Notes under the pieces: generated by a model | The model's input: the letters and a program-made list of their open reading frames with translations, nothing else | Told to the model about the DNA's origin: nothing | Database searches by the model: none | Position numbers and translations under genes: made by a program | Shown: positions 45,594 to 61,198 of the stretch, piece by piece | Position numbering within the stretch: the stretch's first letter is position 1 | Layout of the letters: each line of letters opens with the position of its first letter | From: an uncultured Alphaproteobacteria bacterium | Lineage (GTDB): Bacteria > Pseudomonadota > Alphaproteobacteria > CAAHEQ01 > UBA3637 | DNA length: 64,000 nt | Direction: 5' to 3' | Assembly: GCA_944391735.1 (NCBI GenBank) | Contig: CALXUR010000002.1 | Location: forward strand, 114,554 to 178,553

Positions 45594-46529
45594 ATGTATA
45601 AAAAAACGCAAACGCTCAATGACCTGATCTTGTGGATGCAGGACACAGATGACGGTATTTCCCTTAAAGATATCATGGAAAAGTATGACGTCTCCCTCCG
45701 GACAGCTGTCCGCATGAAAGATTCCATCGCCGAAAAATATCCTGAATTAAATGAAATCAGCGGTCCATACAACACAAAACGTTGGTATCTGCCAAAAGGA
45801 ACCGGCCGCGATATGGTCAGCTTTTCAATGGAAGAAATTCACGCGCTACAAAACGCATCCAAACTTTTGGCTTCTAAAAAGATGATTGATTCTCGATATA
45901 TCGATAACGTCCTGCACAAGATAAAAGCCCTCATCGGTAAGGATGCCATCAACAGAATAGAACCGGATGCCGAAGCACTATTGGAAGCTGAAGGTTACGC
46001 TTTTCGGCCCGGACCAAAGATTATCATCAACACAGAACACTTAAAACAGCTCCGCTACGCAATTATTGCGTGCAACCGCATTAAAATAAAATATGATTCC
46101 GAACATAACAAGGACTGGCGCGAGTTGTACCCTTATGGCTTCCTGTATGGAAATAAGCACTATTTAATTGCTTGGGATCCAGCAAAGCGCAAGATGTGTC
46201 ACTTTAATTTGAATAAAATAAAAGAAATTGAGGTCTTAAATACATACTTCAAGCGCGATCCTCATTTCTCACTAAAGGAATTCAGCGAACAAGCCTTTGG
46301 TGTTTATCAAGAAAAACCTTTTGATGTTGAATGGCTGTTTGATGCAGGAGTTGCAGATTCCGCGGCTCAATATACTTTTCATCCGAAGCAAGAAGCAATC
46401 CGCAATCCGGACGGTACGTTAACCGTTAAGTTCCGGGCTGGCGGCGCACGCGAGATGGACTGGCACCTTTACACATGGGGTGGCCACGTTAAAGTAATCA
46501 AACCGGAAGATTTTGATAAAAGAAAGTAA
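45594..46529 (+). CDS. WYL-domain transcriptional regulator
   Basis: The 311-residue protein has an N-terminal winged helix (NDLILWMQDTDDGISLKDIMEKYDVSLRTAVRMKDSI, residues about 8-45), a linker, and a WYL domain (about 130-200: NRIKIKYDSEHNKDWRELYPYGFLYGNKHYLIAWDPAKRK) followed by a WCX-like C-terminus. WYL proteins sense nucleic-acid or nucleotide ligands and commonly control defence islands (BrxR/CapW type). It is the first gene of the island on this strand and has a good promoter and GGAG site. Confidence 0.9.
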   Translation: MYKKTQTLNDLILWMQDTDDGISLKDIMEKYDVSLRTAVRMKDSIAEKYPELNEISGPYNTKRWYLPKGTGRDMVSFSMEEIHALQNASKLLASKKMIDSRYIDNVLHKIKALIGKDAINRIEPDAEALLEAEGYAFRPGPKIIINTEHLKQLRYAIIACNRIKIKYDSEHNKDWRELYPYGFLYGNKHYLIAWDPAKRKMCHFNLNKIKEIEVLNTYFKRDPHFSLKEFSEQAFGVYQEKPFDVEWLFDAGVADSAAQYTFHPKQEAIRNPDGTLTVKFRAGGAREMDWHLYTWGGHVKVIKPEDFDKRK

Positions 46530-46534
46530 CTTTA

Positions 46535-46759
46535 ATGTGGATTAGTAAGGAAAAATACGAAGATATTGAAAGGCGTGTAAAGGAACTCAACGAGGAATTA
46601 CAACGGCTTTATAATTTAGCATATCTCGTCGATATAAAACAAGACGGAATGAAAATGGTAATGACCTTTTGCCAAGGCGATAAAATGTTCACAATTGAGG
46701 CTGTTCGGATCATTTCCGGCGGTAAGGATATATCAAAACTAATTCCGCCCGCTGATTAA
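46535..46759 (+). CDS. Small coiled-coil protein next to the WYL regulator
   Basis: The 74-residue protein follows the WYL gene by 5 bp. Residues 5-30 form a coiled coil (YEDIERRVKELNEELQRLYNL), then a small beta-rich part. No family is recognised. Its 3' end overlaps the convergent sspA gene by 21 bp. It could be a partner of the WYL protein. Confidence 0.65.
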   Translation: MWISKEKYEDIERRVKELNEELQRLYNLAYLVDIKQDGMKMVMTFCQGDKMFTIEAVRIISGGKDISKLIPPAD

Positions 46760-47920
46760 TTCAATAGCGGTATTAATATCGTCCATATTAGAAAAGCGAC
46801 CAACGGTAATTCGGAAAGAGTGTTCTGCTTCCTCTGTTGTCAGACCAATTGCCTTCAAAACGTGTGATGGCTCTTGAATACCGCTAGTACATGCAGAACC
46901 GGTAGAAAATGCTATTTTAGGCTGTAACGACAATATCATGTCTCGTGCATCGCGGTTAGAAAGCATAACATTAAGATTTCCCGGATGCCGGCTATCCATT
47001 GTGCCATTGATTTTTATATCCGGGAATTTAGCCTTTAAACCCTCAAGCAATTTCGCGCGTAAATCACTAATATATTGGGTCTCTGTGTCCTTTAAATCTT
47101 TCATCAGGCTAAAAGCTTCACCCATCCCGACAACTAAAAAGGTCGGCATTGTACCGGATCTGTATCCACTTTGTTGACCACCGCCTCTTATAATAGGTGT
47201 CGGTTTCAATTCGCTCGCTTGATTAATATAAAGTGCGCCAATGCCTTTCGGTCCATAAACTTTGTGACCGGATAAACTCATCATATCCACGTGATTTTCG
47301 ACAACATCAATGTTTGCATACGCGCCTTGTGCCGCATCAACATGAAAAATTGCACCTTTTTCTTTGCACATTGTGCCAATTTTTTCTAAAGGTTGATTAA
47401 CGCCGATTTCGTTGTTTGTTGCCATTGTTGAAACAAGAAGTACATCATCTGTCAGAAGCTCATTTAATGCATTAAAGTCAATAATTCCATCGTGTTTCAC
47501 AGGAATTTTTTTAATAGTAAAGCCAAAACGTTCTAGAAAGCGCGATGCCCCTAGGACACATTTATGTTCAATTGCTGAAACAAGGATCGTTCTCCTTTTT
47601 AACTTATCTAAAGCCGTGTAACCCATTCCAATGATCGCTAGATTATTTGACTCTGTTGCTCCTGACGTAAAAACTATTTCATCTTCAAGTGCATTAATAT
47701 AATCAGCAACCATTCCTTTTGCGCTTTCAATAGCATCATTTGCTTTCCACCCGAAAGAGTGCTCTGATGAATGAGGATTACCAAATTCCGTTGTCATAAA
47801 CGGGAGCATTTTATCCAAAACGCGCGCATCAAGAGGCGTTGATGCCTGATAGTCAAGATAAATACCTGTATTACCAGTATTTTCGCTGTTTTTAAGTAAA
47901 TTTGATAAATTATTTTTCAT
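46739..47920 (-). CDS. sspA: Cysteine desulfurase of the phosphorothioation system
   Basis: An IscS/NifS-type PLP enzyme of 393 residues that mobilises sulfur from cysteine. SGATESNNLA, the PLP lysine in LSGHKVYGPKG (Lys220) and the catalytic Cys344 in STGSACTSG are all present. ATG 47920 gives the normal start; the longer frame upstream is unlikely. It is divergent from sspB with a 92-bp spacer. The desulfurase of Ssp or Dnd systems feeds sulfur to SspD/DndC; its place here supports that role over Fe-S assembly, which I infer. Confidence 0.88.
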   Translation of the reverse strand: MKNNLSNLLKNSENTGNTGIYLDYQASTPLDARVLDKMLPFMTTEFGNPHSSEHSFGWKANDAIESAKGMVADYINALEDEIVFTSGATESNNLAIIGMGYTALDKLKRRTILVSAIEHKCVLGASRFLERFGFTIKKIPVKHDGIIDFNALNELLTDDVLLVSTMATNNEIGVNQPLEKIGTMCKEKGAIFHVDAAQGAYANIDVVENHVDMMSLSGHKVYGPKGIGALYINQASELKPTPIIRGGGQQSGYRSGTMPTFLVVGMGEAFSLMKDLKDTETQYISDLRAKLLEGLKAKFPDIKINGTMDSRHPGNLNVMLSNRDARDMILSLQPKIAFSTGSACTSGIQEPSHVLKAIGLTTEEAEHSFRITVGRFSNMDDINTAIELISGRN

Positions 47921-48012
47921 TTTTTTCACTTTTCTATGGAATTTTTTTTTTGAATCCTGTATCATCATTTTCGACTGGAGAATGTCGCCAGCGAAAAAAA
48001 GGATAGCATAAA

Positions 48013-48951
48013 ATGAAAAATGAATCAACTCTAAAAAATTCAAAACCCGTTTTTTCGGGTCATGAAACATTTCCTCTTAGGTACGGATGGCTGAAAAAAG
48101 TGTACGATGCGGCTACCGCTGTGGAAGAAAAAAAAGGAAATATTTCCAAGGACTTATTCAATAATATTGAGGCAATTTCAATCCTCGGCGTTGGTAAAAA
48201 CATGGTTTCATCAATGCGTTATTGGGCTCTTTATACAGGCATTTTAGCTGTGAATGAAGATAAAAATTTGTATGTCACAGACTATGCAAAAAAAATTTTC
48301 GCAGATACCGGCTTTGATCCATGGCTTGAAAACTATGCTACCCTTTGGCTAATACATTGGAATTTGGCGACAAATCCGAATTTGTTTACTTATTACTGGG
48401 TTTTCAACAGGCTCAATGCGGCAACTTTTGACAAGGATTCACTTGTAGCCTCTATTCAGGAAGCTCTTTCTGAGTACGATTTACCGGATGTTTCCCTCTC
48501 TACTTTAAAGCGTGATGTTGAGTGCTTTCTGGGGGTTTATTCCACCCGTTCTGCAAAGGAAAAATCTAACGAAGAGAGCATTGAGTCACCGTTGACAGAG
48601 CTTGCCTTGATTTCGCCGCTTACACGTAGAGATTTGTTTCAAACAAAGGTCGGTGCAAAACCTAATTTATCCGTTTATACCTTTATTTTCGGGCTTCTAA
48701 TGTTCTGGAAATTTTATTCTCCTAATTCTAAGACTTTATCCTTAGAAGCGATTTGTTACGAAGAAATGTCACCGGGGCGCATATTTCTTATTAATGAAAA
48801 TGCTATTGGAGATTTTGCCCAGAATATTTCTGAAGTTACAAATGGTTTGTTAGAATGGTCAGAAACAGCGGGACTAAAACAAATCTTATTAAAAAAGGAT
48901 ATAGATTTTGAAAAAGAAGCCTTTAAGATCTTTGAAAGGAATTACAAATGA
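48013..48951 (+). CDS. sspB: SspB, DUF4007 DNA nickase-type protein
   Basis: The 312-residue protein starts with FSGHETFPLRYGWLKKVYDA near residue 15, the signature of DUF4007, and has YATLWLIHWNLATNPN and a C-terminal domain of the same family. In the Vibrio single-strand phosphorothioation system SspB is a nickase needed for SspABCD modification (established). It overlaps sspC by 4 bp. AAGGAT lies ahead of the ATG. Confidence 0.88.
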   Translation: MKNESTLKNSKPVFSGHETFPLRYGWLKKVYDAATAVEEKKGNISKDLFNNIEAISILGVGKNMVSSMRYWALYTGILAVNEDKNLYVTDYAKKIFADTGFDPWLENYATLWLIHWNLATNPNLFTYYWVFNRLNAATFDKDSLVASIQEALSEYDLPDVSLSTLKRDVECFLGVYSTRSAKEKSNEESIESPLTELALISPLTRRDLFQTKVGAKPNLSVYTFIFGLLMFWKFYSPNSKTLSLEAICYEEMSPGRIFLINENAIGDFAQNISEVTNGLLEWSETAGLKQILLKKDIDFEKEAFKIFERNYK

Positions 48952-51900
48952 TGGAAAAAATGTCCGACATCGTAAAAATAAATACTAGATTTTGTCGTTC
49001 AATTAACATTAATCAAGATCTTGGAAATGCCGATATTCTTGCAGGCTTTATTTGTCCTGCTTCGTCTGAAATTGCTTTGCTTAATATTGCTGAAAATGTA
49101 TATGCTACGGGGCAAGCCGCATTTACATGGACAGGCCCTTATGGTTCCGGTAAGTCTTCTCTTGCTTTGTTTTTATCAGCATTAATAGGCAAAGATAAAA
49201 AACTACGCGCCCTAGCGCAAAGTTTATTTAAGGAATCTGCAAAAGAAGAATTTTACTCAAAAATCAAAGTAAATGACGGTTGGGAAATTCTTCCAATAAT
49301 CGGCGATAAACAGGATCCTGCGATACTCTTAAAAGAAGCTATTGAAAAGAAGCAAGGTAAAAAGTGCACAGACATTCTAAAATCAATACAAGAAATCGCC
49401 GATACATCAGATGGACTGCTAATTTTTATTGATGAAATGGGAAAATGCCTAGAGAGTGCGGCAAAAGGTCAAGGCGACGTGTATCTGTTTCAACAATTAG
49501 CTGAGTATGTATCAAGAAGCAATGGCAAAATAATCCTTATTGGAATTTTACACCAGGCGTTTGCAGAGTACGCACGTTATTTGCCGCATACTATCCGCGA
49601 TGAATGGATCAAAATTCAAGGACGTTTTGTTGATACACCCATCAATACTGCCGGCGAAGAACAAATTGAATTGATTTCTAAAGCGATAACAACAGACTTT
49701 ACCTCATCATCAATAAAGGATGTTGTTGAAAAAACGGTTACGTCCATTGCAAAAAATAAACTTATTACATCAAAGGATGGTTTAACGCAGTCACTTCTTC
49801 ACTGCTGGCCTATTTCTCCAGTAGTAGTTACGTTGCTAGCTCAAATTTCAAGAAAAAGATTTGGCCAAAACCAGCGCAGTATTTTCTCGTTCTTGAGTTC
49901 CGGAGAGCCGAAAGCATTCAGAGACTTTATTAACTCAACAAGTTTTTCCGATGATAAGATGTACATGCCGGAGGATTTGTTTGACTATCTGAAGCTAAAT
50001 CTTGAATCTTCTATTTTATCATCATCTGATTCAAAGATTTGGAACATTGCTACTGACGTTTTAGCACGTTGCCAAGCAAAAGGAGCTTCCCTGGAACACA
50101 TAAATGTCTTAAAAACGATTGCTCTGATTGATATGTTTAATGGTGCTTCTGGCCTTGTTTCAAATGAAGAACTCCTCCAGGCACTTTATCCAAAGGCAAA
50201 TATAAAAGCTATTATAAAAGATTTAACATCCTGGTCAGTCATTATTCTTAAAAAGCACTTAAACGCGTATTCAATTTATGAAGGTAGCGACTTTGACATA
50301 GAAAAAGCACTTGCTGAAGCGTATGCCGCAATTCCAACGCTTGAAATTCAAAAACTCGTTGATATTGCCAATTTCAAACCGATTATTGCAAAACGCCATT
50401 ATCATAAATACGGATGCATGAGATGGTTAGATATTCTGCTTACCCCGGTTGAAAATTATAAAGAGTTCTTGAACCATGAACATGATCATAACAAGTCTGT
50501 TGGTTTTTTTGCTATCTTCCTCCCGCAAAACCCGACTGAGGAACAAAAAGCAACCGAAATAACGCAAGGAAAAAATAAATTTGATTTTCCTGTGTTTATG
50601 ACTGTTGCAAAAAACACTCAGACAATTAATGAGTACTTAAAAGAATTGCTTTCCCTTGAGTGGATCCAAAAAAACAAAAATGAACTAGCAGGCGACCATA
50701 TTGCACGCCGTGAAATAGAAAATAGACGGTTAATCATTATTTCGTTGCTAGAAGTCCAATTGAATGAAATTTTAACGGCTTCTGATTGGTATAAAAATGG
50801 TGAGGCTTTAGGATTAATTAAGCAGAATGAATTTAGTATTTTAGCTTCCAAAGTCTGTGAACAAGTTTATCCAGAAACTCCAATCATCAAAAGTGAGCTG
50901 GTTAATAGAACAAAGCCTTCAGGAAGTGCAAACAGCGCATTGAACAATTTATTAAAGGATATGGTTTTGCAAGAAGGCGAAGAACTTCTTGGTATCAAGG
51001 GATTCACCCCAGAACGCGGCTTGTTTAACATTTTGCTTCAAGAAACTGGTATATATCGCCTAACAGATAAGGAAACATACGGATTCGGAGCACCAAGGGC
51101 CGAGAATTTATTAAGCCTTTGGAAAACAACAGATTCAATGTTTAAAAAAGTTAAACGAGCTGTTTCATTGGCTGATGTTTATGAGCAATGGAGTAAGCCG
51201 CCGTTTGGTATAAAGGCCGGATTATATAATTTCCTTGCTCTTGCATATATGCTAAGCAGAAAAACAAAAATAGCAGTCTACAGAGACGGAACGTATATTC
51301 CTGAGATAAATGACCTTTTAGTGGATTATTTATTGAAATCACCTAAAACCATTTCATTAAAATTGGTTGATGCAGATGATGTAACTGGTCATATTTTACC
51401 GGCAATCGCACAATTATTAAATACGCTTCAATCTACAAATCAAATTCCATTGAACGCATCACCGTTGACAATTGCTCGTAAGTTAGTGCAGATCATTGAT
51501 AAATTGCCGCCTTGGGTATTGAAAACTAAAACACTGTCAAAGCGGACGATAAAATTTAGGGAAATTGTTAAATCTGCAAATGATCCACATAAGTTGCTTT
51601 TAGAGGATATTGAGAAAGTCTTTTATGATGAAGTGGAAAATAAAGACGGTGATAAGTCTGCCATTATTATTCAAAATCTGAAGGAAGCCATGGAGGAACT
51701 TATTAATATTTATCCGGCAACAATGACCAACATTGCTTTGTTGCTGACAAATGAGCTGGATGTTCCTCTCGCCACGCCAACGCACTTGGAAAAGTTGCGT
51801 GAGCGCGCTAAGAATATCAAAGGCGTATCAGGCAATTTCAAAATTGATGCATTTGCGGCTCGTATTTCTACATTTAACTCCAGCCTTGCAGATATCGCTG

Positions 51901-52250
51901 GTATCGTAAGTTTGGCAAACAACAAACCACCGCATGACTGGATTGATCTTGATATTGAAAATGCTAAAAAGGAAATCTTAAACCTTTGTACCGAATTCAA
52001 GAAAGCTGAGTTATATACGAAAGTCAAAAATCGCCCAGCTTCACGACAGGCTGTCGCTTTTATTGCCGGTATCGGAAATAAAGCTGAAGTTATCGAGGGC
52101 GAATTTGATTTGCTTACCGATATGCAATCTGACGTATCTAATTTAAAAAACAAAATTAAAGATGCTGTTAAAGATATGACAAACAAAAACGTACTTTTAG
52201 CCGCATTAACAGAAATTAGCATTGAGTATTTAAAGGCAGGAAATGACTGA
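48948..52250 (+). CDS. sspC: SspC, large ATPase of the phosphorothioation complex
   Basis: The 1100-residue protein has an N-terminal P-loop FTWTGPYGSGKSSLALFLS (residues 59-77), Walker B-like LLIFIDEMGKCLE near 165, and a conserved LPHTIRDEWIKIQGRFVDTPIN block. The long C-terminal part is helical and has no recognised domain. In the Ssp system SspC is the ATPase partner of SspB and SspD. It overlaps both neighbours by 4 and 8 bp. The ATG pair at 48948/48951 leaves the exact start open by a codon or so. Confidence 0.87.
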   Translation: MMEKMSDIVKINTRFCRSININQDLGNADILAGFICPASSEIALLNIAENVYATGQAAFTWTGPYGSGKSSLALFLSALIGKDKKLRALAQSLFKESAKEEFYSKIKVNDGWEILPIIGDKQDPAILLKEAIEKKQGKKCTDILKSIQEIADTSDGLLIFIDEMGKCLESAAKGQGDVYLFQQLAEYVSRSNGKIILIGILHQAFAEYARYLPHTIRDEWIKIQGRFVDTPINTAGEEQIELISKAITTDFTSSSIKDVVEKTVTSIAKNKLITSKDGLTQSLLHCWPISPVVVTLLAQISRKRFGQNQRSIFSFLSSGEPKAFRDFINSTSFSDDKMYMPEDLFDYLKLNLESSILSSSDSKIWNIATDVLARCQAKGASLEHINVLKTIALIDMFNGASGLVSNEELLQALYPKANIKAIIKDLTSWSVIILKKHLNAYSIYEGSDFDIEKALAEAYAAIPTLEIQKLVDIANFKPIIAKRHYHKYGCMRWLDILLTPVENYKEFLNHEHDHNKSVGFFAIFLPQNPTEEQKATEITQGKNKFDFPVFMTVAKNTQTINEYLKELLSLEWIQKNKNELAGDHIARREIENRRLIIISLLEVQLNEILTASDWYKNGEALGLIKQNEFSILASKVCEQVYPETPIIKSELVNRTKPSGSANSALNNLLKDMVLQEGEELLGIKGFTPERGLFNILLQETGIYRLTDKETYGFGAPRAENLLSLWKTTDSMFKKVKRAVSLADVYEQWSKPPFGIKAGLYNFLALAYMLSRKTKIAVYRDGTYIPEINDLLVDYLLKSPKTISLKLVDADDVTGHILPAIAQLLNTLQSTNQIPLNASPLTIARKLVQIIDKLPPWVLKTKTLSKRTIKFREIVKSANDPHKLLLEDIEKVFYDEVENKDGDKSAIIIQNLKEAMEELINIYPATMTNIALLLTNELDVPLATPTHLEKLRERAKNIKGVSGNFKIDAFAARISTFNSSLADIAGIVSLANNKPPHDWIDLDIENAKKEILNLCTEFKKAELYTKVKNRPASRQAVAFIAGIGNKAEVIEGEFDLLTDMQSDVSNLKNKIKDAVKDMTNKNVLLAALTEISIEYLKAGND

Positions 52251-53079
52251 AAAAGTAAAACACGTTTTAGGAATATCGGGTGGAAAGGATAGCGCGGCTC
52301 TCGCTGTTTATATGCGTGATAACTATCCTGAGCTTGATATTGACTACTTCTTCACCGACACGGGAAAAGAGCTTCCTGAGGTTTATTCTTTTCTTAGCAA
52401 ACTAGAAGGATATTTAGGTAAACCTATTTTGCGTATTAATCCGGATCGCGATTTTGACTTTTGGTTGATGCAACACAATAACTTCCTGCCATCGGCACAG
52501 GCCCGTTGGTGTACGATTTGCATGAAACTTAAACCTTTTGAGGCTTGGGTCGGCAAATTCTTAAATGACGGATATACCGTGTATTCATATGTTGCTATTC
52601 GCTCAGACGAAGAATATCGCGAAGGCTATCAATCTCGCCATGAAAATCTAAAGGTAAAAATGCCCTTTAGAGAAAATGGAATTGATAAAAAAGGCGTTAT
52701 TGACATTCTTGAATACTCAGGGCTTGGATTGCCGGATTATTACAAATGGCGATCAAGAAGTGGTTGTACGTTCTGTTTCTTCCAAAGAAAGATTGAGTGG
52801 GTTCGCTTAATGGAGAAACACCCGGATGCTTTTGAGGAAGCAAAAAGTTATGAGAAAAAAGCCACCGCCAGCGGATCACCTTTCACATGGTCAGAGCATG
52901 AATCACTCGAGGATCTATCAAAACCTGAGAGAGTAGCCCAAATTAAGCAAGATTATGAAAGACGTCTAGAGCGGCTGAAAAAGCAACGCATGGCAAATCC
53001 GCTTCGTCCTGATAATGAAGAAATCGATATAGATGATTTATATGGAAAATCAAAGGTATGTTTAGCATGTCACAAATAG
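52243..53079 (+). CDS. sspD: SspD/DndC-like sulfurtransferase (PP-loop, Fe-S)
   Basis: The 278-residue PAPS-reductase-like protein has the PP-loop GISGGKDSAALAVYM (residues 10-24) and two Cys pairs, CTIC at 90-93 and CTFC at 175-178, suited to a 4Fe-4S cluster as in DndC; a third pair ends the protein (CLAC). The enzyme adenylates backbone phosphate and installs sulfur (known for DndC, assigned to SspD by analogy). It overlaps sspC by 8 bp and ends the writer operon. Confidence 0.88.
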   Translation: MTEKVKHVLGISGGKDSAALAVYMRDNYPELDIDYFFTDTGKELPEVYSFLSKLEGYLGKPILRINPDRDFDFWLMQHNNFLPSAQARWCTICMKLKPFEAWVGKFLNDGYTVYSYVAIRSDEEYREGYQSRHENLKVKMPFRENGIDKKGVIDILEYSGLGLPDYYKWRSRSGCTFCFFQRKIEWVRLMEKHPDAFEEAKSYEKKATASGSPFTWSEHESLEDLSKPERVAQIKQDYERRLERLKKQRMANPLRPDNEEIDIDDLYGKSKVCLACHK

Positions 53080-53081
53080 TA

Positions 53082-53143
53082 TGTCATTTTTTGTCATTAC
53101 ATTTTATGCGGAGATTGAATTTTCTGCAGAATTGGTGTACAAT
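53082..53143 (+). promoter_or_regulatory. Second promoter of the island, before the helicase gene
   Basis: TTGAAT (53115-53120) and TACAAT (53138-53143) are 17 bp apart. TGTCATTTTTTGTCA lies at 53082-53096, 18 bp upstream of the -35 box, the same distance as at the macrodomain gene. This gives the restriction genes independent expression from the writer genes. Confidence 0.65.
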
Positions 53144-53170
53144 GTGGCGCAACTTTAACTTGAGGATATT

Positions 53171-55351
53171 ATGAGCCTAAAGGAGATACCCATAAAGCGG
53201 GAATACCGCCCCGAAGATAATGTCGTGAGGAATTTTTATATTCCTCTGCTTTCTTCTGCTATCTCTTATCAGCGTGCTGTGGGCTTTTTTTCTTCCACAA
53301 TTCTTGCTGAAATTGCCGTTGGAATATCTGCGCTCGTTCGCAATAATGGTAAGATCCAAATAGTTGCATCTCCTTACCTATCGGATGAAGATGTTGAAGC
53401 AATAAAAATGGGGTATAAGGCCCGGGACGAAGTCGTAAAAGATTCTATACTAAATGCTCTTGAGGATCCTAAATCTGACTTTGAAAAAGAAAATCTCAAT
53501 TTGTTAGCAAATTTAATTGCAGACAGTGTTCTTGATATAAAAATTGCGTTTACTGAAAAAGGTCACTCGTTTGGTATGTACCACGAAAAGATGGGAATTA
53601 TCTCGGATGCCGAAGGAAATCGTGTGGCTTTCTCAGGATCCTTGAACGAGACATTTAACGCTGTTCATTTTAATTATGAAACAATAGATGTTTATTGCTC
53701 ATGGAAGACTGAGGATGTAGAGCGCGTTAACGATAAAATCTCAGCTTTTGAACGTATTTGGAATAATGACGAAGCTAATATCACTATCATTGATTTCCCG
53801 GAATTAAAAGACGAAATGATCAGAAAATATAAACGAGAAAAGGTTGATTATGAAAAATTCGTAGAGCCGAAACTTCCGGATATCATCGACGCTCCGATAA
53901 AGATGGAAGTTTTGAATCGTCCGACCATGCCTGATTGGCTTGATTTACATGACTACCAAGAATCTGCAATTGAAGAATGGGCCAAACGTGGCTACAGAGG
54001 CATTTTTGATATGGCCACAGGTACAGGTAAAACATTAACTGGCTTAAGTGCGATTACAAAAATTTCAAAAGACCTAAATAATAAGTTGGCAGTAATTGTT
54101 GTCGCTCCCTATCAACACCTCGTTGATCAATGGTGCGAAGATATTGAAAAGTTTAACATAGCACCAATTATTGGCTACAGTTCATCACCGCAACGAAATT
54201 GGTTAGATCGTCTTAAGAATGCAATCTTTGATCAAAACCTTGGAGTAAAGAACAGCGAGTTTTTCTTATTCGTTTGTACCAATGCGACATTTGGTCTTGA
54301 ACGTACACAAGCACAGTTAGCAAAAATTAAAGGCGATGTACTTTTGGTAATTGATGAAGCTCACAATGCTGGTTCCGCCTCCTTTGAAAAGCTCCTTAAT
54401 CCAAAATATAAGTATAGGTTAGCACTTTCAGCTACACTTGACAGACATGGGGACGAAGAAGGTACACAACGTCTTTATGACTATTTCGGCGAAAAATGTA
54501 TTACATATCCTTTAGACCAGGCGATTGAAGCTGGATGGTTAACTCGTTATTATTATCATCCTATTGTCGTGACTTTAGAGCCTGATGAATTAGAAGAATA
54601 CATAGGCCTTTCCCGTGAAATTGGAAAATGTATAATTTGGGGCCGTGATGGGAAAAAACAGTTGAACGAACGCGGCAAAAGATTAGCTCTTGCTCGCGCT
54701 AGGATTGTGAGTGGAGCACGACAAAAACTGTCAGCTTTACGTCGTGAAATTGAACCGTTTAAGGATGACAAGTTTATTTTAGTCTATTGTGGTGCCACAA
54801 ATGTTTTGCCGGATGATCAGGATAGATCCTCAACTAATGAAAATGATATTAGACAGGTTGAAGCAGTTTCTAGTATTTTAGGAAATGAACTCGGCATGAA
54901 GAGTGCACGTTTCACTTCTGATGAGGATATGAGCGAGAGAAAAATAATCAAAGAACAATTTTCAATGGGCAATTTACAAGCTCTGGTTGCTATTAAATGT
55001 CTTGATGAAGGTGTTAATATCCCAGCCATAAGAACTGCATTTATATTAGCAAGCACTACAAACCCAAAAGAATACATCCAACGCCGAGGAAGAGTTTTAC
55101 GCCTGAGTAAAGGTAAGGAATATGCGAATATATATGATTTTATCACGCTTCCGCGGCCAATTGATACAGCACATTATCTTACAGATGACCAGGCGAAAAT
55201 GGAGTTGTCACTAATTAAGTCAGAAATCAAACGAGCTGAGGAATTCGCTCGCATTTCTATGAATAAAATGGACGCTATGAAACTCATTGATTCAATCAAA
55301 GAGGCATATAGTATTGATAAATACTTACTACTTGATGAGGAGGTTTTATGA
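53171..55351 (+). CDS. PLD-nuclease/DEAH-helicase fusion, candidate restriction effector
   Basis: The 726-residue protein has an N-terminal phospholipase-D-like domain with one HxK motif (His138, Lys140, Asp146 in MYHEKMGIISD, then SGSLNET), then an SF2 helicase: Walker A FDMATGTGKTLTG (280-292), DEAH at 395-398 (LVIDEAHNAGS), LALSATLDRHGD, and motif VI QRRGRVLRLSKG. Such fusions cut and translocate DNA in restriction-like systems. Position after sspBCD suggests an effector of the SspFGH kind; I have not assigned those names because I cannot check them. GAGGATATT precedes the ATG. Confidence 0.88.
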   Translation: MSLKEIPIKREYRPEDNVVRNFYIPLLSSAISYQRAVGFFSSTILAEIAVGISALVRNNGKIQIVASPYLSDEDVEAIKMGYKARDEVVKDSILNALEDPKSDFEKENLNLLANLIADSVLDIKIAFTEKGHSFGMYHEKMGIISDAEGNRVAFSGSLNETFNAVHFNYETIDVYCSWKTEDVERVNDKISAFERIWNNDEANITIIDFPELKDEMIRKYKREKVDYEKFVEPKLPDIIDAPIKMEVLNRPTMPDWLDLHDYQESAIEEWAKRGYRGIFDMATGTGKTLTGLSAITKISKDLNNKLAVIVVAPYQHLVDQWCEDIEKFNIAPIIGYSSSPQRNWLDRLKNAIFDQNLGVKNSEFFLFVCTNATFGLERTQAQLAKIKGDVLLVIDEAHNAGSASFEKLLNPKYKYRLALSATLDRHGDEEGTQRLYDYFGEKCITYPLDQAIEAGWLTRYYYHPIVVTLEPDELEEYIGLSREIGKCIIWGRDGKKQLNERGKRLALARARIVSGARQKLSALRREIEPFKDDKFILVYCGATNVLPDDQDRSSTNENDIRQVEAVSSILGNELGMKSARFTSDEDMSERKIIKEQFSMGNLQALVAIKCLDEGVNIPAIRTAFILASTTNPKEYIQRRGRVLRLSKGKEYANIYDFITLPRPIDTAHYLTDDQAKMELSLIKSEIKRAEEFARISMNKMDAMKLIDSIKEAYSIDKYLLLDEEVL

Positions 55352-55524
55352 CCGAAGAAAAAGTAATGCAAAACAACACCGAAATTGATGTTAAAAAGGC
55401 TCAGATGATTTTGAAAAAAATCATTGTAAAAGAGAATAATAACATTAAGCGAAAAGACAAAAACGATGGTGAAATGGTAAAAATGATCCAAAAGTTGATC
55501 GAGGAGGAAGTAAAATGCTATTAA
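55348..55524 (+). CDS. 58-residue helical protein between the helicase and SMC genes
   Basis: ATG 55348 overlaps the helicase stop by 4 bp (ATGA) and follows GAGGAGGTTTT, an excellent ribosome site. The end overlaps the next gene by 10 bp. The product is very charged and helical, for example KKAQMILKKIIVKE and MIQKLIEEEVKCY. Coupling on both sides argues that it is a real gene. It may be a small subunit or antitoxin-like partner; no family is recognised. Confidence 0.7.
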   Translation: MTEEKVMQNNTEIDVKKAQMILKKIIVKENNNIKRKDKNDGEMVKMIQKLIEEEVKCY

Positions 55525-57515
55525 AATCCATAAAAGTAAAAGATTTTAGACAATTTAAAGGAGAGCAGTATGTTTCTTTCTCTACTGATCCTGAACGCAA
55601 TGTAACCATCATTCAAGGTGATAATGGTGCTGGTAAAACATCTTTTGCACAAGCCTTTCGTTGGTGTTTATATGGCGAAACTGACTTTTCTAACAAGACT
55701 CTATTATCAATGGCTGTTTCAGATCAAATGTTGCCAGGAGATGAAAAAGATGTTCAGGTTGAAATTTGCCTGGTACACAATGATATAGAGTATACCGTAA
55801 CAAGACGTCAAAGATATAAAAAGGATACGGCAAATAGAATTTCTAATTCGGGTCGTAATAAGTTTGTTATTTCATATAAGAAAAGTGACGGTAACACTGA
55901 ATATGTCCCCGAATTAGAAACAGAGTTAAAGATGAAGGAAATTTTACCGGCTGATCTTTCTCGCTATTTCTTTTTTGACGGCGAACATATTGACCATATG
56001 GGAAAAGAAATTCGTAATGGACGTAGCTCCGATTTTGCAGATGCTGTTCGTAGTCTTTTGGGATTAAATGCTTTTATTGCAACATTAAATCACCTTAAAG
56101 GAAACGGGAAAAACTCCGTTATTGGTCGTTATAATGAAAGTTATAATGCCGGTGCAGATGAAACTCTTTCTCAACTTATTAAAAACATTAATTCATACAA
56201 TGAAAGAATATCAGCGATTGACAAACGCTTGAACGAGTTAGAACAACAAGATGCCTTTGCAAATGATAAATGCCAACAATTGAGACTCAGAATTGAAAAA
56301 AATCAAGATAGTAAAGAATTGGCCGAAGAGAGAAATAAGTTGGAAAAAGAACTTGCAGGGCTAGAAGTTACAAAGAAAGAAAAGACTGGATTACTTCTGA
56401 AAAATTTTAATGCCCATGCACCAAGGTACTTCTCGAAAAAAATGATGAAAGATGCTCTAGAATTATTAAAGAGTGCTGAACAGTTAGATAAAGGAATTCC
56501 TGATGTAACAGCAAAAACTATAGATTACTTGCTTGCACGAGGATATTGCTTGTGTGGCCATAAAATTGAGATTGGCGATGATGCATTTAACGCTCTCAAT
56601 AAATTAAGAGACTTCATTCCTCCGAAATCAATTGGTAGTTTGATCTCAGATTTTAGTTCATCCTGTCAGGAGAAAACTGCGAGTACCTCTAGCTTCTTTG
56701 ATAACTTTCAAGATATAATTAAGTTCATTCGTGAGTTTGATAATAACAGAAATACACTTGAAGATAGACTTAAAAAGATCAAAGAAAGACTCCTCGGAAT
56801 GGAAAATGTTGGAGCTCTACAGCAAGAATTGACCAACTATGAACGTGATATTAGAAAGAATTCAGATGAGCGTGATAATCTAAATCAAGAAAAAGGTGTT
56901 GCACAAAGTAAGCTCCAGAGTGACGAAGAAAAGCGTAGTTCTCTTGCAATCGGCGATGCCAACAATAGAAAAATTGAAACGTATCGTGCTTATGCTGAAT
57001 ATATGTATAATACACTTAAACAAGAGTATGACATTAAAGAAACAGAAACTCGTGAACAATTAGCTAAAACAGTTAATACGATCTTTAAGAAGATTTATAA
57101 CGGTGGTTTTTCGCTTTCGCTTGATGCAAAATATAACATCATATTGACCGCCGATGGAAGAAGTAAGGCAAATGACGATGACAACATAGAAACTTCAACA
57201 GCACAAAGTATTTCAATTATTTTTGCATTTATTGCCGGCGTGATTAAAATGGCAAAAGAAAATCAAGGTTCTGATGAACGTTTAGCCCAAACGGAGCCTT
57301 ATCCGCTCGTTATGGATGCTCCTCTTTCTGCTTTCGATGAAAAGAGAATAGACACTGTATGCGATGTACTACCCAAAATTGCAGAACAAATTATTATTTT
57401 TATAAATCCAAAAGATGGTAAATTAGCAGAAGATAATCTTGGTTTAAGAATTGCTAAACGCTATACATTTACAAAGAAAACAGAATTTGAAACTGATTTG
57501 ATGGAGGTAGGCTAA
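55515..57515 (+). CDS. DndD-like SMC/Rad50-type ATPase
   Basis: The 666-residue protein has Walker A IIQGDNGAGKTSFAQAF (residues 32-48), two long coiled-coil arms, a CLCGHKI zinc-hook-like pair in the middle (near residue 335), and a C-terminal Walker B VMDAPLSAFDEKR. This is the layout of DndD and Rad50-like proteins. Since sspABCD is a complete writer without DndD, this copy likely serves the restriction side with the helicase. GAGGAGGAAG overlaps the upstream gene; the stop overlaps the next start (TAATG). Confidence 0.85.
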   Translation: MLLKSIKVKDFRQFKGEQYVSFSTDPERNVTIIQGDNGAGKTSFAQAFRWCLYGETDFSNKTLLSMAVSDQMLPGDEKDVQVEICLVHNDIEYTVTRRQRYKKDTANRISNSGRNKFVISYKKSDGNTEYVPELETELKMKEILPADLSRYFFFDGEHIDHMGKEIRNGRSSDFADAVRSLLGLNAFIATLNHLKGNGKNSVIGRYNESYNAGADETLSQLIKNINSYNERISAIDKRLNELEQQDAFANDKCQQLRLRIEKNQDSKELAEERNKLEKELAGLEVTKKEKTGLLLKNFNAHAPRYFSKKMMKDALELLKSAEQLDKGIPDVTAKTIDYLLARGYCLCGHKIEIGDDAFNALNKLRDFIPPKSIGSLISDFSSSCQEKTASTSSFFDNFQDIIKFIREFDNNRNTLEDRLKKIKERLLGMENVGALQQELTNYERDIRKNSDERDNLNQEKGVAQSKLQSDEEKRSSLAIGDANNRKIETYRAYAEYMYNTLKQEYDIKETETREQLAKTVNTIFKKIYNGGFSLSLDAKYNIILTADGRSKANDDDNIETSTAQSISIIFAFIAGVIKMAKENQGSDERLAQTEPYPLVMDAPLSAFDEKRIDTVCDVLPKIAEQIIIFINPKDGKLAEDNLGLRIAKRYTFTKKTEFETDLMEVG

Positions 57516-58036
57516 TGTTATTTACACACGATTATTCCTTTAAGGGGGCTCATGCTGAAAAAGTTAAAGCACTTGTTGGCCACAAATTTGATAAAGAACA
57601 CACTCTTTTTGAGAGAAATATGGACGTGTATTTAATGGCCCCGGTTGTCGGTTTTTTGTATAGCCGGAAAGCTGAACTAGATAAAAGTAAGCCATCAACT
57701 ACAAATATCTTAGCAGAAATCATGATTAAATATCAAAAAGAGCTTACATTCACATATCGTCTTGTCATGTTGTTAGATAAGGAATATGAGCCTGATACCG
57801 AAAAGCGCATTAATAAGGCTTTTAGAGATTATGCAAAAGAAGATACTAAAGATCTGGAAGAGTACGACAGCTATGTTCGTGGTGGCGTTGATGTCCTATA
57901 TGAAAAGCTGATGAAGGATGCAACACAAGCTGATGATTACATCAGAAATCTGTATGAATTTATGGCAGATTTTGAAGACCGTTATTCACAAAATTCAGAT
58001 GAAATTATGGATTTGTGTAAGCTGGCCAGAGAATAA
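57515..58036 (+). CDS. Uncharacterised 173-residue island protein
   Basis: Start and the preceding stop share one base (TAATG), so translation is coupled to the SMC gene. The protein is mainly helical, with HTLFERNMDVYLMAPVVGFLYSRKAELD near residue 28 and an acidic C-terminus. It does not look like DndE, which is shorter and has a different core. Tight coupling suggests it is a subunit that works with the SMC ATPase. No function is proposed. Confidence 0.75.
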   Translation: MLFTHDYSFKGAHAEKVKALVGHKFDKEHTLFERNMDVYLMAPVVGFLYSRKAELDKSKPSTTNILAEIMIKYQKELTFTYRLVMLLDKEYEPDTEKRINKAFRDYAKEDTKDLEEYDSYVRGGVDVLYEKLMKDATQADDYIRNLYEFMADFEDRYSQNSDEIMDLCKLARE

Positions 58037-58047
58037 ACGGGGGCATT

Positions 58048-58557
58048 ATGACCGATGAGACAAATAAAATTGTACAAGAGCTTTTTCAAAAATCCCATCG
58101 CTTTCTTGCCGAGGACGAGGTAGTAAGTGCGGCACTTGAAGCAAAACTATCTCTGTTCGAGACAAACGCTGTCATTGAAGCTCTTATAGCTAAAGGTGTC
58201 TATATATCGGATAACATTCAAGATGCGTTAAAACAGGTTTGCAAAGACAAAGTGGAAAAAGTAAGCACAGGAATGTCTAGAAAATCGCAAGAGAGTGCTA
58301 CAACATTTTCTATGTTACGAATACCAGCTGGCTCGAAACTTACTTTTTTAAAGGATCGCAATATTGTTGCAATTACTCTTGATGAAACAAATAGAATTAG
58401 ATTAGAGGATGGATCTCTTGAGGGTTCAACATCTAGATTAGCACAAATCCTTGCTGTAAAGTTCGGCTACGCTGATGTTGCACGCCAAGGACCTCGTTGG
58501 TGGTTATACCAAGGTCAACCACTCCTTGCTATAAGGGAAGAACTAGAGAACGATTGA
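58048..58557 (+). CDS. Two-domain protein: sigma-1.1-like domain plus RAMA/DUF4357-like domain
   Basis: The 169-residue protein has an N-terminal helical domain (5-55: KIVQELFQKSHRFLAEDEVV, LSLFETNAVIEALIAKGVYI) that clearly resembles the N-terminus of the next gene's sigma factor. The C-terminal domain (about 88-160) reads RIPAGSKLTFLKDRNIVAITL, NRIRLEDGS and GPRWWLYQGQPLLAIRE, a pattern like the RAMA and DUF4357 domains found in DNA-modification systems and proposed to read modified DNA. The assignment is by eye. GGGGGC before the ATG; one base separates it from the sigma gene. Confidence 0.65.
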   Translation: MTDETNKIVQELFQKSHRFLAEDEVVSAALEAKLSLFETNAVIEALIAKGVYISDNIQDALKQVCKDKVEKVSTGMSRKSQESATTFSMLRIPAGSKLTFLKDRNIVAITLDETNRIRLEDGSLEGSTSRLAQILAVKFGYADVARQGPRWWLYQGQPLLAIREELEND

Positions 58558-58558
58558 G

Positions 58559-59620
58559 ATGGCGAATGAAGCAAAGCAAAAAATCATTGATCTTTTGACG
58601 GACCTGTACAAAACAAACGGTTATGTAACAGAAGATGAAGTTTTTGAGCTTTCAGAACGCGAAAATCTTTCAGTTTTTGATATAAATTACATTACAGAGT
58701 ATTTGCTCTCGCATGGAGTTATAATAAGCGAAGAAAAAGAAAAAATAACCACTAAAAAAGGACGTGGATACAGGCGCGATCATACAAAATTCTTTAAGGA
58801 AATTTCAAAGGAATACAAGGACCTTAAATTTTTTATTAGATATTATAATTCAATTGATGGCTTAGCTGAAGGAGAATGGGTCACTCTGATACAACAGGCG
58901 CGACATGGGAATGAGTGGGCTAGAACAAGATTGTTTGATACCTCAATGCAGAAAACAATAAAACAAGCCTATGCTGTTTCAAAAAAATTCGACTTGGACT
59001 TTGAAAATACACTGCAGGCTTCATCTTTTGGAATCCTGTATGCAATAAGCGCATTTGATGAAACGGAACACTCTTCGTTCCCTTCTTATGTTCCTCTCGC
59101 TGTTAATAGTCAGTTGCGACGAGATGTTTATCTTCATTCAAACCCTGTCATTGATTTTCCAACGTACTTGATGAACGATTTCTTCAAAATTCATACTCTT
59201 GTAAAAGAACATAATTGTAGCGAATGCGCATATAGCAATAACAAATTAACGTGTGAAAATTTACGTAATGAGATCCAAGATAAATTAAAATCAACCGCAG
59301 AGGAAGTTGATGAATGTATTAAATACTTACAACCGCTTGAAGATTTATGGGAAGATACTTGCATAGATGATTCGGATATCACTAAAGGCTTACGTGAGAA
59401 TGAAATGAGAATAAGTGTAAATCAACTACTATCGCATCTAAAACCTCAAGAGGAAGAAGTTATCCGAATGCGCTTTGGAATTGATAGCGAAGAATATTCG
59501 CTAGAAAGCATTGCACAGATAAAATCCGTAACCAGACAGCGAATTCAGCAGGTTGAGGTAAAGGCACTTGATAAATTGCGACAGCTTGCTAGAAGTGTCT
59601 TAAAAGTTGAAAGACCATAA
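58559..59620 (+). CDS. Sigma-70-family factor encoded at the end of the phosphorothioation island
   Basis: The 353-residue protein has a region-1.1-like N-terminus (8-58), region 2 (about 108-192: LIQQARHGNEWARTRLFD, NTLQASSFGILYAISAFDE, FPSYVPLAVNSQLRRDVY), region-3-like text with a Cys cluster (Cys220, 223, 232) and a convincing region 4 (288-345: LLSHLKPQEEEVIRMRFGID, SVTRQRIQQVEVKALDKLRQL). It is not an ECF factor. It should direct RNA polymerase to specific promoters, perhaps those of the island. Region 2 is divergent from RpoD, so promoter specificity should differ. One base separates it from the reader-like gene. Confidence 0.88.
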   Translation: MANEAKQKIIDLLTDLYKTNGYVTEDEVFELSERENLSVFDINYITEYLLSHGVIISEEKEKITTKKGRGYRRDHTKFFKEISKEYKDLKFFIRYYNSIDGLAEGEWVTLIQQARHGNEWARTRLFDTSMQKTIKQAYAVSKKFDLDFENTLQASSFGILYAISAFDETEHSSFPSYVPLAVNSQLRRDVYLHSNPVIDFPTYLMNDFFKIHTLVKEHNCSECAYSNNKLTCENLRNEIQDKLKSTAEEVDECIKYLQPLEDLWEDTCIDDSDITKGLRENEMRISVNQLLSHLKPQEEEVIRMRFGIDSEEYSLESIAQIKSVTRQRIQQVEVKALDKLRQLARSVLKVERP

Positions 59621-59624
59621 ATAA

Positions 59625-59660
59625 AAAAATCCCCGCAGGTGTTATTCCCGCGGGGTTTTT
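59625..59660. terminator. Terminator between the island operon and HU
   Basis: CCCCGC and GCGGGG form a GC-rich stem with flanking A and T runs; it serves both convergent transcripts. Confidence 0.92.
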
Positions 59661-59676
59661 AGAAACTTTATAAAAT

Positions 59677-59949
59677 TTATTTCACTGCATTTTTCAAAAC
59701 TGCACCGGCTTTGAACTTAGGAGCTTTTGTTGCAGCAATTTTGATTTCTTTACCAGTTCTTGGGTTACGGCCTGTACGAGCGGCTTTTTTAACAACATCA
59801 AATGTACCAAAACCAGTTAATTGAACAGCTTCACCTTTTTTCAAAGATTTTGTAATAACAGCTAAACAAGCATCAACAGCAATTGTAGCTTGTGCTTTTG
59901 TCATTCCTGCAGCTTCAGCAACAGCTGCTACGTATTCAGTTTTATTCAT
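59677..59949 (-). CDS. HU-family DNA-binding protein
   Basis: The 90-residue protein has the complete HU/IHF fold: MNKTEYVAAVAEAAGMTKAQA, LTGFGTFDVVKKAARTGRNPRTGKEI with the DNA-bending arm proline, and KFKAGAVLKNAVK. ATG 59949 follows AAAGGAAAA and gives the standard length. It is convergent with the sigma gene and upstream of nothing else on its strand before the phage genes; it may be phage- or island-encoded. Confidence 0.95.
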   Translation of the reverse strand: MNKTEYVAAVAEAAGMTKAQATIAVDACLAVITKSLKKGEAVQLTGFGTFDVVKKAARTGRNPRTGKEIKIAATKAPKFKAGAVLKNAVK

Positions 59950-60046
59950 GTTTAATTTTCCTTTCTTAACGTTAAGTTTATAGAGGTTCATGACGCCTCC
60001 GCTTATGATTCGAGCTATTTTTGCATGAAAAGTCAAACAAAATCTT

Positions 60047-60241
60047 TTAATTTGTACATAAATCATCGTAAACCACATTGTTTCTATCAATTTGGCGAAT
60101 AGTTTCCGGGGTGTCATGCTCATAATCCGCATACACCGGTTCGTATAAAAGGCAAAAATCACCGTTTATATTTGTCGTGCAACCGCTTAGCGCGCTCAGG
60201 ATCAGCCAGGCTGTCCCGACTTTTTTTAGCTGTTTTAACAT
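60047..60241 (-). CDS. Rz1-like spanin lipoprotein
   Basis: The 64-residue protein has a lipoprotein signal (ILSALSGCTT, Cys21) and a conserved-looking YEPVYADYEHDTPETIRQIDRNN segment, common in alphaproteobacterial phage lysis regions. It starts inside the preceding gene in another frame, overlapping it by 83 bp, the embedded Rz/Rz1 arrangement. It would be the outer-membrane spanin subunit. Confidence 0.78.
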   Translation of the reverse strand: MLKQLKKVGTAWLILSALSGCTTNINGDFCLLYEPVYADYEHDTPETIRQIDRNNVVYDDLCTN

Positions 60242-60380
60242 TGTCCACCGTTCCTTTCATTACTTTCACTTGTTCTTTTTCCTTGCCGCGCCGATAGCCG
60301 AGCATATATAAGACGGCCACCGCTCCGGCGATTATCCAGTATTTACCCTTATTCCAAAGTTTTGTTATTCTGTTCAACAT
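60159..60380 (-). CDS. Rz-like inner-membrane spanin
   Basis: The 73-residue protein has one N-terminal membrane helix (YWIIAGAVAVLYMLGY) and a charged periplasmic helix ending PERAKRLHDKYKR. With the overlapping lipoprotein gene it forms a two-component spanin that fuses inner and outer membranes at lysis. It overlaps the holin gene by 32 bp. Confidence 0.72.
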   Translation of the reverse strand: MLNRITKLWNKGKYWIIAGAVAVLYMLGYRRGKEKEQVKVMKGTVDNVKTAKKSRDSLADPERAKRLHDKYKR

Positions 60381-60567
60381 CTTGTTTTTGCCTTTCCTTT
60401 AACCCAATATCTCGTGCGCCACTGACACCGAGTAAAATGCCCATGGCCGTTAATAAATACTCCCAGTCCACTACCGGAAGGCCCGTTATAGGCGCGATCA
60501 GGCAGTTATGGAGGAACCCGTAACACAGGATCCACCCGAGGACCGGGATCCAAAGCCGCTTTTTCAT
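60349..60567 (-). CDS. Holin-like membrane protein
   Basis: The 72-residue protein has two membrane segments (PVLGWILCYGFLHNCLIA and WEYLLTAMGILLGVSGARD) and a charged tail. The GVSGARDIG end resembles the 3TM holins of alphaproteobacterial phages and gene-transfer agents. It overlaps the endolysin gene by 4 bp. Confidence 0.72.
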   Translation of the reverse strand: MKKRLWIPVLGWILCYGFLHNCLIAPITGLPVVDWEYLLTAMGILLGVSGARDIGLKERQKQDVEQNNKTLE

Positions 60568-60971
60568 GCCATTTGTATTCCTTTCAATAAAGTTTCATTA
60601 GAGTATGGCTGTATGCCGTTTTCATGTCTGATGATTGCCTTAATAAAGACCAGCAAGACACCATCTTCCGAAAGGTCGACCGGTGTGTCTGGAGTGATGT
60701 TCAGTTGCCAGGACACGCTGTTAATATATGAAACTGTTTCGTTTTCGGTTGGTGGTGCGTACCGGCTGATAATCTTCCGGGGCGTGTTCAGGACATAGAG
60801 CCGCTGATAGTTGCGCAGTAATTTGGCCAACGCCCGGATACCGTATTCCGGTGTTTCAAATACACAAAAGGACGGGTCCTGCTGTTTCCCGTCCTTTTTT
60901 AGTCCTTTCCAGTCCGAACCCCAACGGATGTTCCCAGGGTTATTATTTCTTATGCCGCGTGGTGTGTTCAT
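60564..60971 (-). CDS. Phage endolysin (lytic-transglycosylase-like, P5 type)
   Basis: ATG 60971 gives 135 residues beginning MNTPRGIRNNNPGNIRWGSDWKG, the hallmark RNNNPGNI-W of phage structural/lysis P5-like muralytic proteins, followed by FETPEYGIRALAKLLRNYQ and IISRYAPPTENETVSYI. It degrades peptidoglycan for lysis or entry. The longer upstream frame lacks these features. It overlaps the preceding gene by 29 bp. Confidence 0.82.
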   Translation of the reverse strand: MNTPRGIRNNNPGNIRWGSDWKGLKKDGKQQDPSFCVFETPEYGIRALAKLLRNYQRLYVLNTPRKIISRYAPPTENETVSYINSVSWQLNITPDTPVDLSEDGVLLVFIKAIIRHENGIQPYSNETLLKGIQMA

Positions 60972-61185
60972 TGTGCATCTCCCATAAAAGCTGATGTAAT
61001 TCATCAATCTTCGTCTCCAGGCGATTGATGTTAACCTGAGTGGCATACTCTTTGGCCACCGCAACTTTGAACTCGTTGAGGTCACGCTCGAGGGTTTTAA
61101 TCTCCTTGCGTTGTTCCCCGAGTTTATAAAAAAACCAGCCAAAGGCCGGTACGCAGATGATCTGTAAAAATTGAATCCAATCCAT
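60943..61185 (-). CDS. Small phage membrane protein with coiled coil
   Basis: ATG 61185 gives 80 residues: one membrane helix (WIQFLQIICVPAFGWFFY) followed by a coiled coil with KEYATQVNINRLETKIDELHQLLWEM. Similar helix-plus-coil proteins lie between tail and lysis genes in many phages. It follows AAAGGAC. The role is unknown. Confidence 0.7.
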   Translation of the reverse strand: MDWIQFLQIICVPAFGWFFYKLGEQRKEIKTLERDLNEFKVAVAKEYATQVNINRLETKIDELHQLLWEMHNEHTTRHKK

Positions 61186-61198
61186 TGTTTGTCCTTTC

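Follow-up and report, generated by a model that had tools for sequence, protein, structure and literature searches.

In relatives described so far sulfur is introduced into the host DNA by the Ssp proteins, and the replication of viruses is blocked by PbeABCD, which is active only when phosphorothioate (PT) is present. This work concerns a putative PT defence island in a stretch of 64,000 nucleotides, called the window below, from an uncultured alphaproteobacterium (contig CALXUR010000002.1). The island pairs an SspABCD writer with an effector of the PbeABCD type, and the effector operon ends with a gene for a protein of the sigma70 family.

Known systems

The DndCDEA-PbeABCD system of Haloterrigena jeotgali (PMC6459918) has its effector genes in the order A, a small B, C and D, where PbeA is a helicase and PbeC an ATPase. 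In that study 320 of 553 pbeAC sets had no dnd genes in their vicinity. The CxC ABC-ATPase systems (Rakesh et al., 2024, PMC10853773) combine a CxC ATPase, a DndE cognate, a protein with HKD and SF2 domains and a small disordered protein. The action of PbeABCD is disputed, a replication block without cleavage being reported in the first of these papers and cleavage by the HKD nuclease in the second. The SspABCD writer is known with the effectors SspE and SspFGH; of SspFGH one gene is described with a Walker A motif and SspH with a C-terminal sequence resembling FtsK, significant homology being otherwise absent (PMC8092258). An effect of PT on transcription has been reported (PMC9239176), and mzaA, a gene of the anti-phage system MZA, has been called a sigma factor (PMC9523054).

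The effector genes in the window follow the order of the Haloterrigena system, with a PbeA helicase, a candidate for the small PbeB (58 residues, 66 in Haloterrigena), a PbeC ATPase and PbeD (173 residues, 152 in Haloterrigena). They share with the CxC systems the CxC ATPase, a DndE cognate and an HKD-SF2 protein, to which the small protein in the PbeB place may be added. The locus differs from the Haloterrigena system in that the writer is SspABCD and not Dnd, and that a sigma gene and a reader-like gene are added. It shares its writer with SspABCD-SspE and SspABCD-SspFGH; here the effector is Pbe, and DUF262 has no match in the genome searched. MzaA is likewise a sigma70-family protein within an anti-phage operon. 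In the part of PMC10853773 consulted no stand-alone sigma is mentioned and the word sigma occurs once, for a helix-turn-helix (HTH) inside DndH; nor did the available parts of the literature searched contain a description of a stand-alone sigma in Pbe or CxC loci.

The writer and the effector module

Ten main proteins of the locus were scanned against PADLOC, NCBIfam and Pfam, two small open reading frames (ORFs) of 58 and 74 amino acids against Pfam alone. All four Ssp proteins are strong family matches (PADLOC E from 4.4e-95 to 0), as the first-pass annotation of this DNA had named them, and its proposed profile check of SspB, SspC and SspD came out in its favour. The cysteine desulfurase SspA (46739..48070, minus strand, 1.3e-136) has TGSACTS with the active-site cysteine at residue 390 and SGHK at 267; the coordinates are those of the longest ORF, and since this overlaps sspB the true start is probably internal. 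The other genes of the island lie on the plus strand. SspB (48013..48951, 4.4e-95) also matches Pfam DUF4007 at 4e-77, the ATPase SspC (48948..52250, E=0, 1161.6 bits) has the Walker A motif GPYGSGKS at residue 63, and SspD (52243..53079, 3.8e-136), an ATP pyrophosphatase resembling PAPS reductase, has SGGKDS at residue 12. With the motifs of SspA, SspC and SspD intact, SspABCD is predicted to be a PT writer, and PT may be present in the host DNA. The annotation had also noted that SspE is missing, and this agrees with the finding of no match to DUF262 (PF03235, GmrSD_N) in the organism's own genome, which is 75% complete.

The genes from pbeA to the sigma gene were all found and are coupled as first described, adjoining genes overlapping or lying at most 11 bp apart. 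PbeA (53171..55351, PADLOC PbeA 1.3e-246, Pfam ResIII and Helicase_C) carries both an HKD nuclease domain of the phospholipase D (PLD) type and an SF2 DEAH helicase, with the HKD-like HEKMGIISD at residue 138 and DEAH at 395 intact and GSLN at 156. PbeC (55515..57515, PADLOC PbeC 1.9e-104) is an ABC ATPase of the CxC type with Walker A at residue 35 and CLCG at 345, and among 15 PbeC rows examined 14 keep the CxC motif, the exception being L034. Between them, in the place of PbeB, lies the 58-residue ORF (55348..55524) with no Pfam match above cut-off. It has recognisable homologues in 11 of the 14 loci found with PbeA and in 12 of 15 regions fetched later, and from its place and conservation it is a candidate PbeB. 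The predicted structure of the 173-residue protein (57515..58036) resembles DndE best, which would make it the DndE cognate expected of PbeD; in Foldseek taken alone the model had no match under E 0.001. PbeD had no match in viral contigs, nor, with the window protein as query, in plasmids. Judged by these families and motifs, the effector block is a PbeABCD (CxC ABC-ATPase) module with a putative PbeB.

A side observation on the pairing of writer and effector comes from a Rhizobium indigoferae plasmid (L042:7499-18401), where SspABCD stands beside a Pbe set in the order C, D, A and no sigma match is found.

The sigma gene in related loci

A PbeA search of 84,980 species genomes gave 14 loci, and a PbeD profile was built on these. 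Matches counted at E <= 0.001, query genomes included, were 1 of 44 genomes in the family of the window's organism, 1 of 378 in the Pseudomonadota and 1 of 375 in the phylum of a Paludibacteraceae genome (Bacteroidota), in each case the query genome itself; 5 of 391 in the class of a Lachnospiraceae genome, 5 of 296 in the phylum of Treponema and 12 of 378 in the phylum of Saccharibacillus. Five of the matches were weak and partial, and G122, G159, G740 and G1031 were left aside. Fifteen further regions were fetched and read with profiles, which gave 28 related loci with PbeD above 75 bits (14 + 14).

In 10 of these 28 loci a sigma gene follows pbeD, one of them (L036) being a near copy of another (L027). 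The neighbourhood survey proposed in the first-pass annotation is borne out for the sigma gene to this extent; the reader-like gene was met again only in L028 and so is not a general part of the locus. In nine of the loci the sigma gene is directly 3' of pbeD with gaps of -1 to 25 bp, and in L028 it comes after the reader gene. The loci belong to Dethiobacter (L025), Saccharibacillus endophyticus (L026), Lachnospiraceae (L027 and L036), an alphaproteobacterial metagenome-assembled genome (MAG; L028) and Treponema bryantii (L035), to which the Spirochaetota search added L072 and L073 and the Bacillota search L075 and L076; they thus span Bacillota, Spirochaetota and Alphaproteobacteria. The writer is placed downstream of the sigma gene in L026 and is absent within 19.5 kb in L075, and Pbe and sigma are kept together in both. 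Four more loci with weak PbeD (22-33 bits: L040, L041, L045, L084) have no sigma in the slot.

The slot after pbeD can be occupied in other ways. In L079 (12940-15084) and L081 (12882-15047) it holds a GmrSD-type gene, which in L079 also matches the PADLOC SspE model weakly (2.2e-4). In L029, L030, L032, L033 and L071 a family of 287-481 residues stands directly after pbeD, and a Pfam scan of its members in L029, L030, L033 and L071 was without match.

Evolution of the sigma protein

In a PbeC tree of 34 rows, which omits L044, L074 and L079 because their PbeC is short, the 11 sigma-bearing rows fall within a single group of 15 supported at 96/99. On this tree 3 changes account for the sigma label, where shuffles took 9.4 on average and none of 500 was as low, near copies favouring such clustering. 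In the sigma tree, which is unrooted and has several long branches, a 100/100 branch divides ten sigmas from 13 RpoD proteins including the host's own. L036 is omitted from the sigma trees and the RpoD row of the window's organism has only 417 amino acids.

When pairwise identities are compared over nine loci, with the near copy L028 and the duplicate L036 omitted, sigma co-diverges with PbeC (r=0.71, p=0.0002), PbeA (0.57, p=0.0006) and PbeD (0.64, p=0.0026). Over eight loci no co-divergence was found with SspC (r=0.20, p=0.22) or SspB (0.22, p=0.19), and PbeC and SspC are themselves uncorrelated (r=-0.24). Sigma tracks the effector and not the writer, which argues that it belongs to the former, and that the writer has been exchanged while sigma and Pbe stayed joined. 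On the evidence of these comparisons the sigma factor is a genuine member of the effector module in one clade. Between the window and L028 the ratio of nonsynonymous to synonymous divergence (dN/dS) is 0.091 for sigma and 0.079 for the reader, with dS of 0.53 and 1.49, so high that the values are rough; they point to purifying selection on both genes. For PbeD dS is saturated.

Sigma proteins of other defence loci were also compared. The window sigma matches MzaA models at 2.9e-19, and a Thalassospira MzaA (L171) is the only plasmid record that covers at least 80% of the L075 sigma. One MzaA and one sigma from a Burkholderia island fall on the RpoD side of the branch, so that kinship of our sigma with MzaA is unsupported by the tree, which has a single MzaA on a long branch; defence systems seem to have recruited sigma factors on more than one occasion. 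The Burkholderia island (L024:14872-25452, with DUF1998) and one in Roseomonas (L173:8983-16013) are on plasmids; in each a helicase gene comes after a gene of the sigma70 family, with a DNA cytosine methyltransferase close by. The arrangement suggests a further defence island equipped with a sigma. In viral contigs the best 80 loci out of at least 185 relatives of the sigma have 23-56% identity and are mostly partial.

State of the sigma protein

The sigma gene (58559..59620) was first annotated as encoding a full sigma factor. A profile of six family members, the window's included, aligns over the whole of SigA (positions 6-362, 2.6e-59), and Pfam finds region 4 in the window protein (Sigma70_r4, 4.4e-12), so the description holds for the family as a whole and is weakened for the window, where region 2 goes unreported by Pfam. 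Pairwise identity within the family is only 25-48% over nine loci. Regions 4.1-4.2 are well kept, the window protein being 46-47% identical there to the host RpoD. For region 2.3-2.4 the identity to the host RpoD is 65% in L075, 50% in L076, 15% in the window and 12% in L035.

Individual residues, at positions which we take to follow the E. coli numbering, give a mixed picture. Those at Y430, R441, R584, Q589 and K593 are kept in all ten sigmas and F427 in nine, and the Gly/Ala of region 2.2 is invariant; W433 is kept in two of the ten and T440 in none. The window sigma additionally has E585Q and R588Q. The pattern is compatible with a sigma that selects altered promoters and also with a protein that is losing its part in transcription.

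The reader-like protein

The gene between pbeD and the sigma gene (58048..58557) codes for a protein with two parts. Residues 4-61 match the N-termini of the sigmas (BLASTP 8e-7), and the N-terminal profile match is 2.9e-9 for 1000 targets, where the best of 1000 shuffles reached 0.045. The same profile also picks up some RpoD proteins (best 2.5e-6), as region 1.1 would lead one to expect, and the N-terminus is a relative of the sigma's region 1.1.

The C-terminal part had been taken for a RAMA/DUF4357-like domain. Residues 76-169 are similar to a domain that follows the T5orf172/GIY-YIG nuclease of the L090 protein and to the C-terminal end of an L089 protein (shuffle z 13.7 and 18.4), these two having been chosen as best database matches (E 0.3 and 1e-3), and PADLOC reports PDC-S57 (1.9e-13) over residues 55-167. 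As for RAMA itself, the match has 14.1 bits against a Pfam cut-off of 35.2, none is reported for the L028 copy, Pfam names neither RAMA nor DUF4357 in L090 or L089, and the T5orf172 traces in L089 are below cut-off. Among the collections searched the whole protein was met only in the window and L028. None was found in viral contigs, and plasmids searched with the full-length protein yielded none at 1e-5; only weak C-terminal matches appeared. The structure model has a pLDDT of 48 from two sequences. The simplest origin would be a partial duplication of a sigma gene fused to a reader-like domain.

Nearest relative and flanks

The window and L028 have a common block from 46750 to 59968 of the window. 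Identity is 98-100% at 46.7-52.7 kb, 77-88% at 52.7-53.7 kb, 97-100% at 53.7-54.5 kb and 72-91% in the rest, the greater part of the writer being in the first of these tracts and the greater part of the effector in the last. The pbeA of L028 is broken by a 71-bp repeat near one such junction. The mosaic may be due to recombination or to strain mixing in the MAGs; either explains it.

The first-pass annotation began the island at 45594. Its named genes are present, and the first two ORFs fall away from it: a WYL-domain regulator (45594..46529, plus strand, Pfam WYL 1.3e-10, WCX 3e-7), possibly a neighbour, and an ORF of 74 amino acids (46535..46759, plus strand) with no Pfam match above cut-off are not ssp genes and lie outside the common block. 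A terminator-like hairpin (59631..59655, minus strand) is placed between the convergent sigma and HU-like genes, 14 such sites being present in the region against 10.1 expected. The stretch 59677-63433 holds the gene of a small DNA-binding protein (phrog_379), HU-like by our reading, inside which the common block ends; in the window it is followed by phage endolysin and tail (J-like) genes on the minus strand. The C-terminal part of a ribosomal protection gene of the TetM/TetW type (63677-64000) is interrupted by the end of the contig.

Promoters

A second promoter had been proposed before the effector genes. The 91-bp gap between sspD and pbeA (53080..53170) does have a sigma70-like match on the plus strand, TTGAAT-17-TACAAT at 53115-53143, in the right place; it is not above chance, as it is among 38 sigma70-like sites where 43.3 were expected, and shuffled sequences do as well as the best site within 160 bases upstream of pbeA. 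Upstream stretches of the ten sigma loci (the window and nine others) were compared by a sigma70-consensus scan and by eye, with ORF starts taken as the longest.

A model for the locus and its rivals

The model which we prefer, with moderate confidence, is that of a PT defence island with an SspABCD writer and a PbeABCD (CxC) effector, the operon of which ends, in this clade, with a sigma70-family protein as a fifth component, by which RNA polymerase would be redirected during the Pbe response. PbeC together with the DndE-like PbeD would scan DNA for the mark, and PbeA, which has a helicase and keeps its HKD motif intact, would act on invading DNA. Once the effector is engaged the sigma would bind core RNA polymerase and direct it to its own promoters, so that discrimination of DNA would be coupled to a transcription response. 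In the lineage of the window the reader-like protein, with its region-1.1 domain and a domain like those of modified-DNA readers, probably tunes the sigma step. The sequence work supports the gene identities, the sigma's membership of the module and its separateness from the housekeeping RpoD. The first-pass annotation saw a writer, a restriction complex and a transcription switch in one locus; the writer, a restriction-like effector and the sigma's membership are borne out, and the switch may reasonably be surmised.

Several observations speak against this model. In 18 of the 28 related loci the slot holds other genes or nothing, and the sigma is therefore not essential to Pbe in general. Pfam gives region 4 and a sub-threshold region 1.1 for the window sigma alone and not region 2, which is degenerate (W433L, W434A, Q437S, T440R), so promoter opening may be lost. 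The trees being unrooted, a single origin of the sigma group is allowed and not proved. By consensus scan and by eye no sigma-specific promoter was found in 14 upstream stretches of the ten sigma loci compared with 6 stretches of loci without sigma, and the sigma-bearing L025 operon has an 11-of-12 housekeeping promoter, as does L029, which is without sigma.

Some phage anti-sigma proteins, such as AsiA of T4, bind region 4 of sigma. A rival model would make the protein a guard or decoy that no longer starts transcription, whose region 4 senses the takeover of RNA polymerase by a phage and releases the Pbe effector. The contrast in the window between regions 4.1-4.2 and region 2.3-2.4 in their likeness to the host RpoD speaks for it, as do the lost -12 contact residues and the low identity within the family. 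A pure decoy would, however, not need Y430, R441 and the region 2.2 Gly/Ala that are invariant in all ten, and L075 and L076 are near consensus in region 2.3-2.4. We consider this model rather unlikely. We would give a similarly small chance to a sigma-like DNA-binding subunit with no role in transcription, which brings the Pbe complex to promoters or open DNA. A sigma-related HTH occurs inside some DndH proteins (PMC10853773), and proteins of 1026-1156 residues with a sigma region-4 HTH are encoded immediately upstream of PbeA in L043 (6876-9956), L039 (3018-6266) and L084 (4532-8002), that is, in a Dnd locus of Ruegeria, on a Lactiplantibacillus plasmid with a short PbeA and in a Bacillota genome; they are a second route by which sigma-like domains meet Pbe. 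Against such an adaptor stands the alignment of the stand-alone family along the whole of SigA, which is more than a DNA-binding HTH requires.

That the sigma and the reader are accidental passengers, or the sigma a recent copy of the host rpoD, is very improbable. The reader is present in only two loci and the sigma is missing from most of the related ones, as passengers would be; the 100/100 branch rules out a copy of the host rpoD, and for the sigma the same slot in three phyla and the co-divergence with PbeC are at variance with chance company. There is virtually no room for the suggestion in the first-pass annotation that the helicase and ATPase genes correspond to SspFGH. Their place beside sspBCD is similar, but the scans point to PbeA and PbeC, and FtsK families are not among the matches listed for the ten proteins, while SspH has been described with similarity to FtsK (PMC8092258).

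Implications

Pbe effectors are here found paired with Ssp writers, and a dedicated sigma in the Pbe module suggests a third element in the dispute about their action, namely control through RNA polymerase. The link between PT and transcription has a concrete candidate in a sigma whose evolution follows that of a PT-linked effector. Tentatively, and with much doubt, it may be proposed that reader and sigma form a switch in which a reader of DNA modification controls the sigma via the shared region-1.1 domains: with its C-terminal domain on marked or phage-modified DNA it would free or block the sigma, and the epigenetic state of the DNA would directly set the transcription of defence genes. 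To our knowledge this would be the first such pair. If it is true, sigma factors would be a recurrent and separately recruited component of anti-phage defence, in Pbe, in MZA and in the two islands with helicase and methyltransferase. In the organism of the window the marking of DNA, the attack on foreign DNA and the control of genes may be coupled in one locus.

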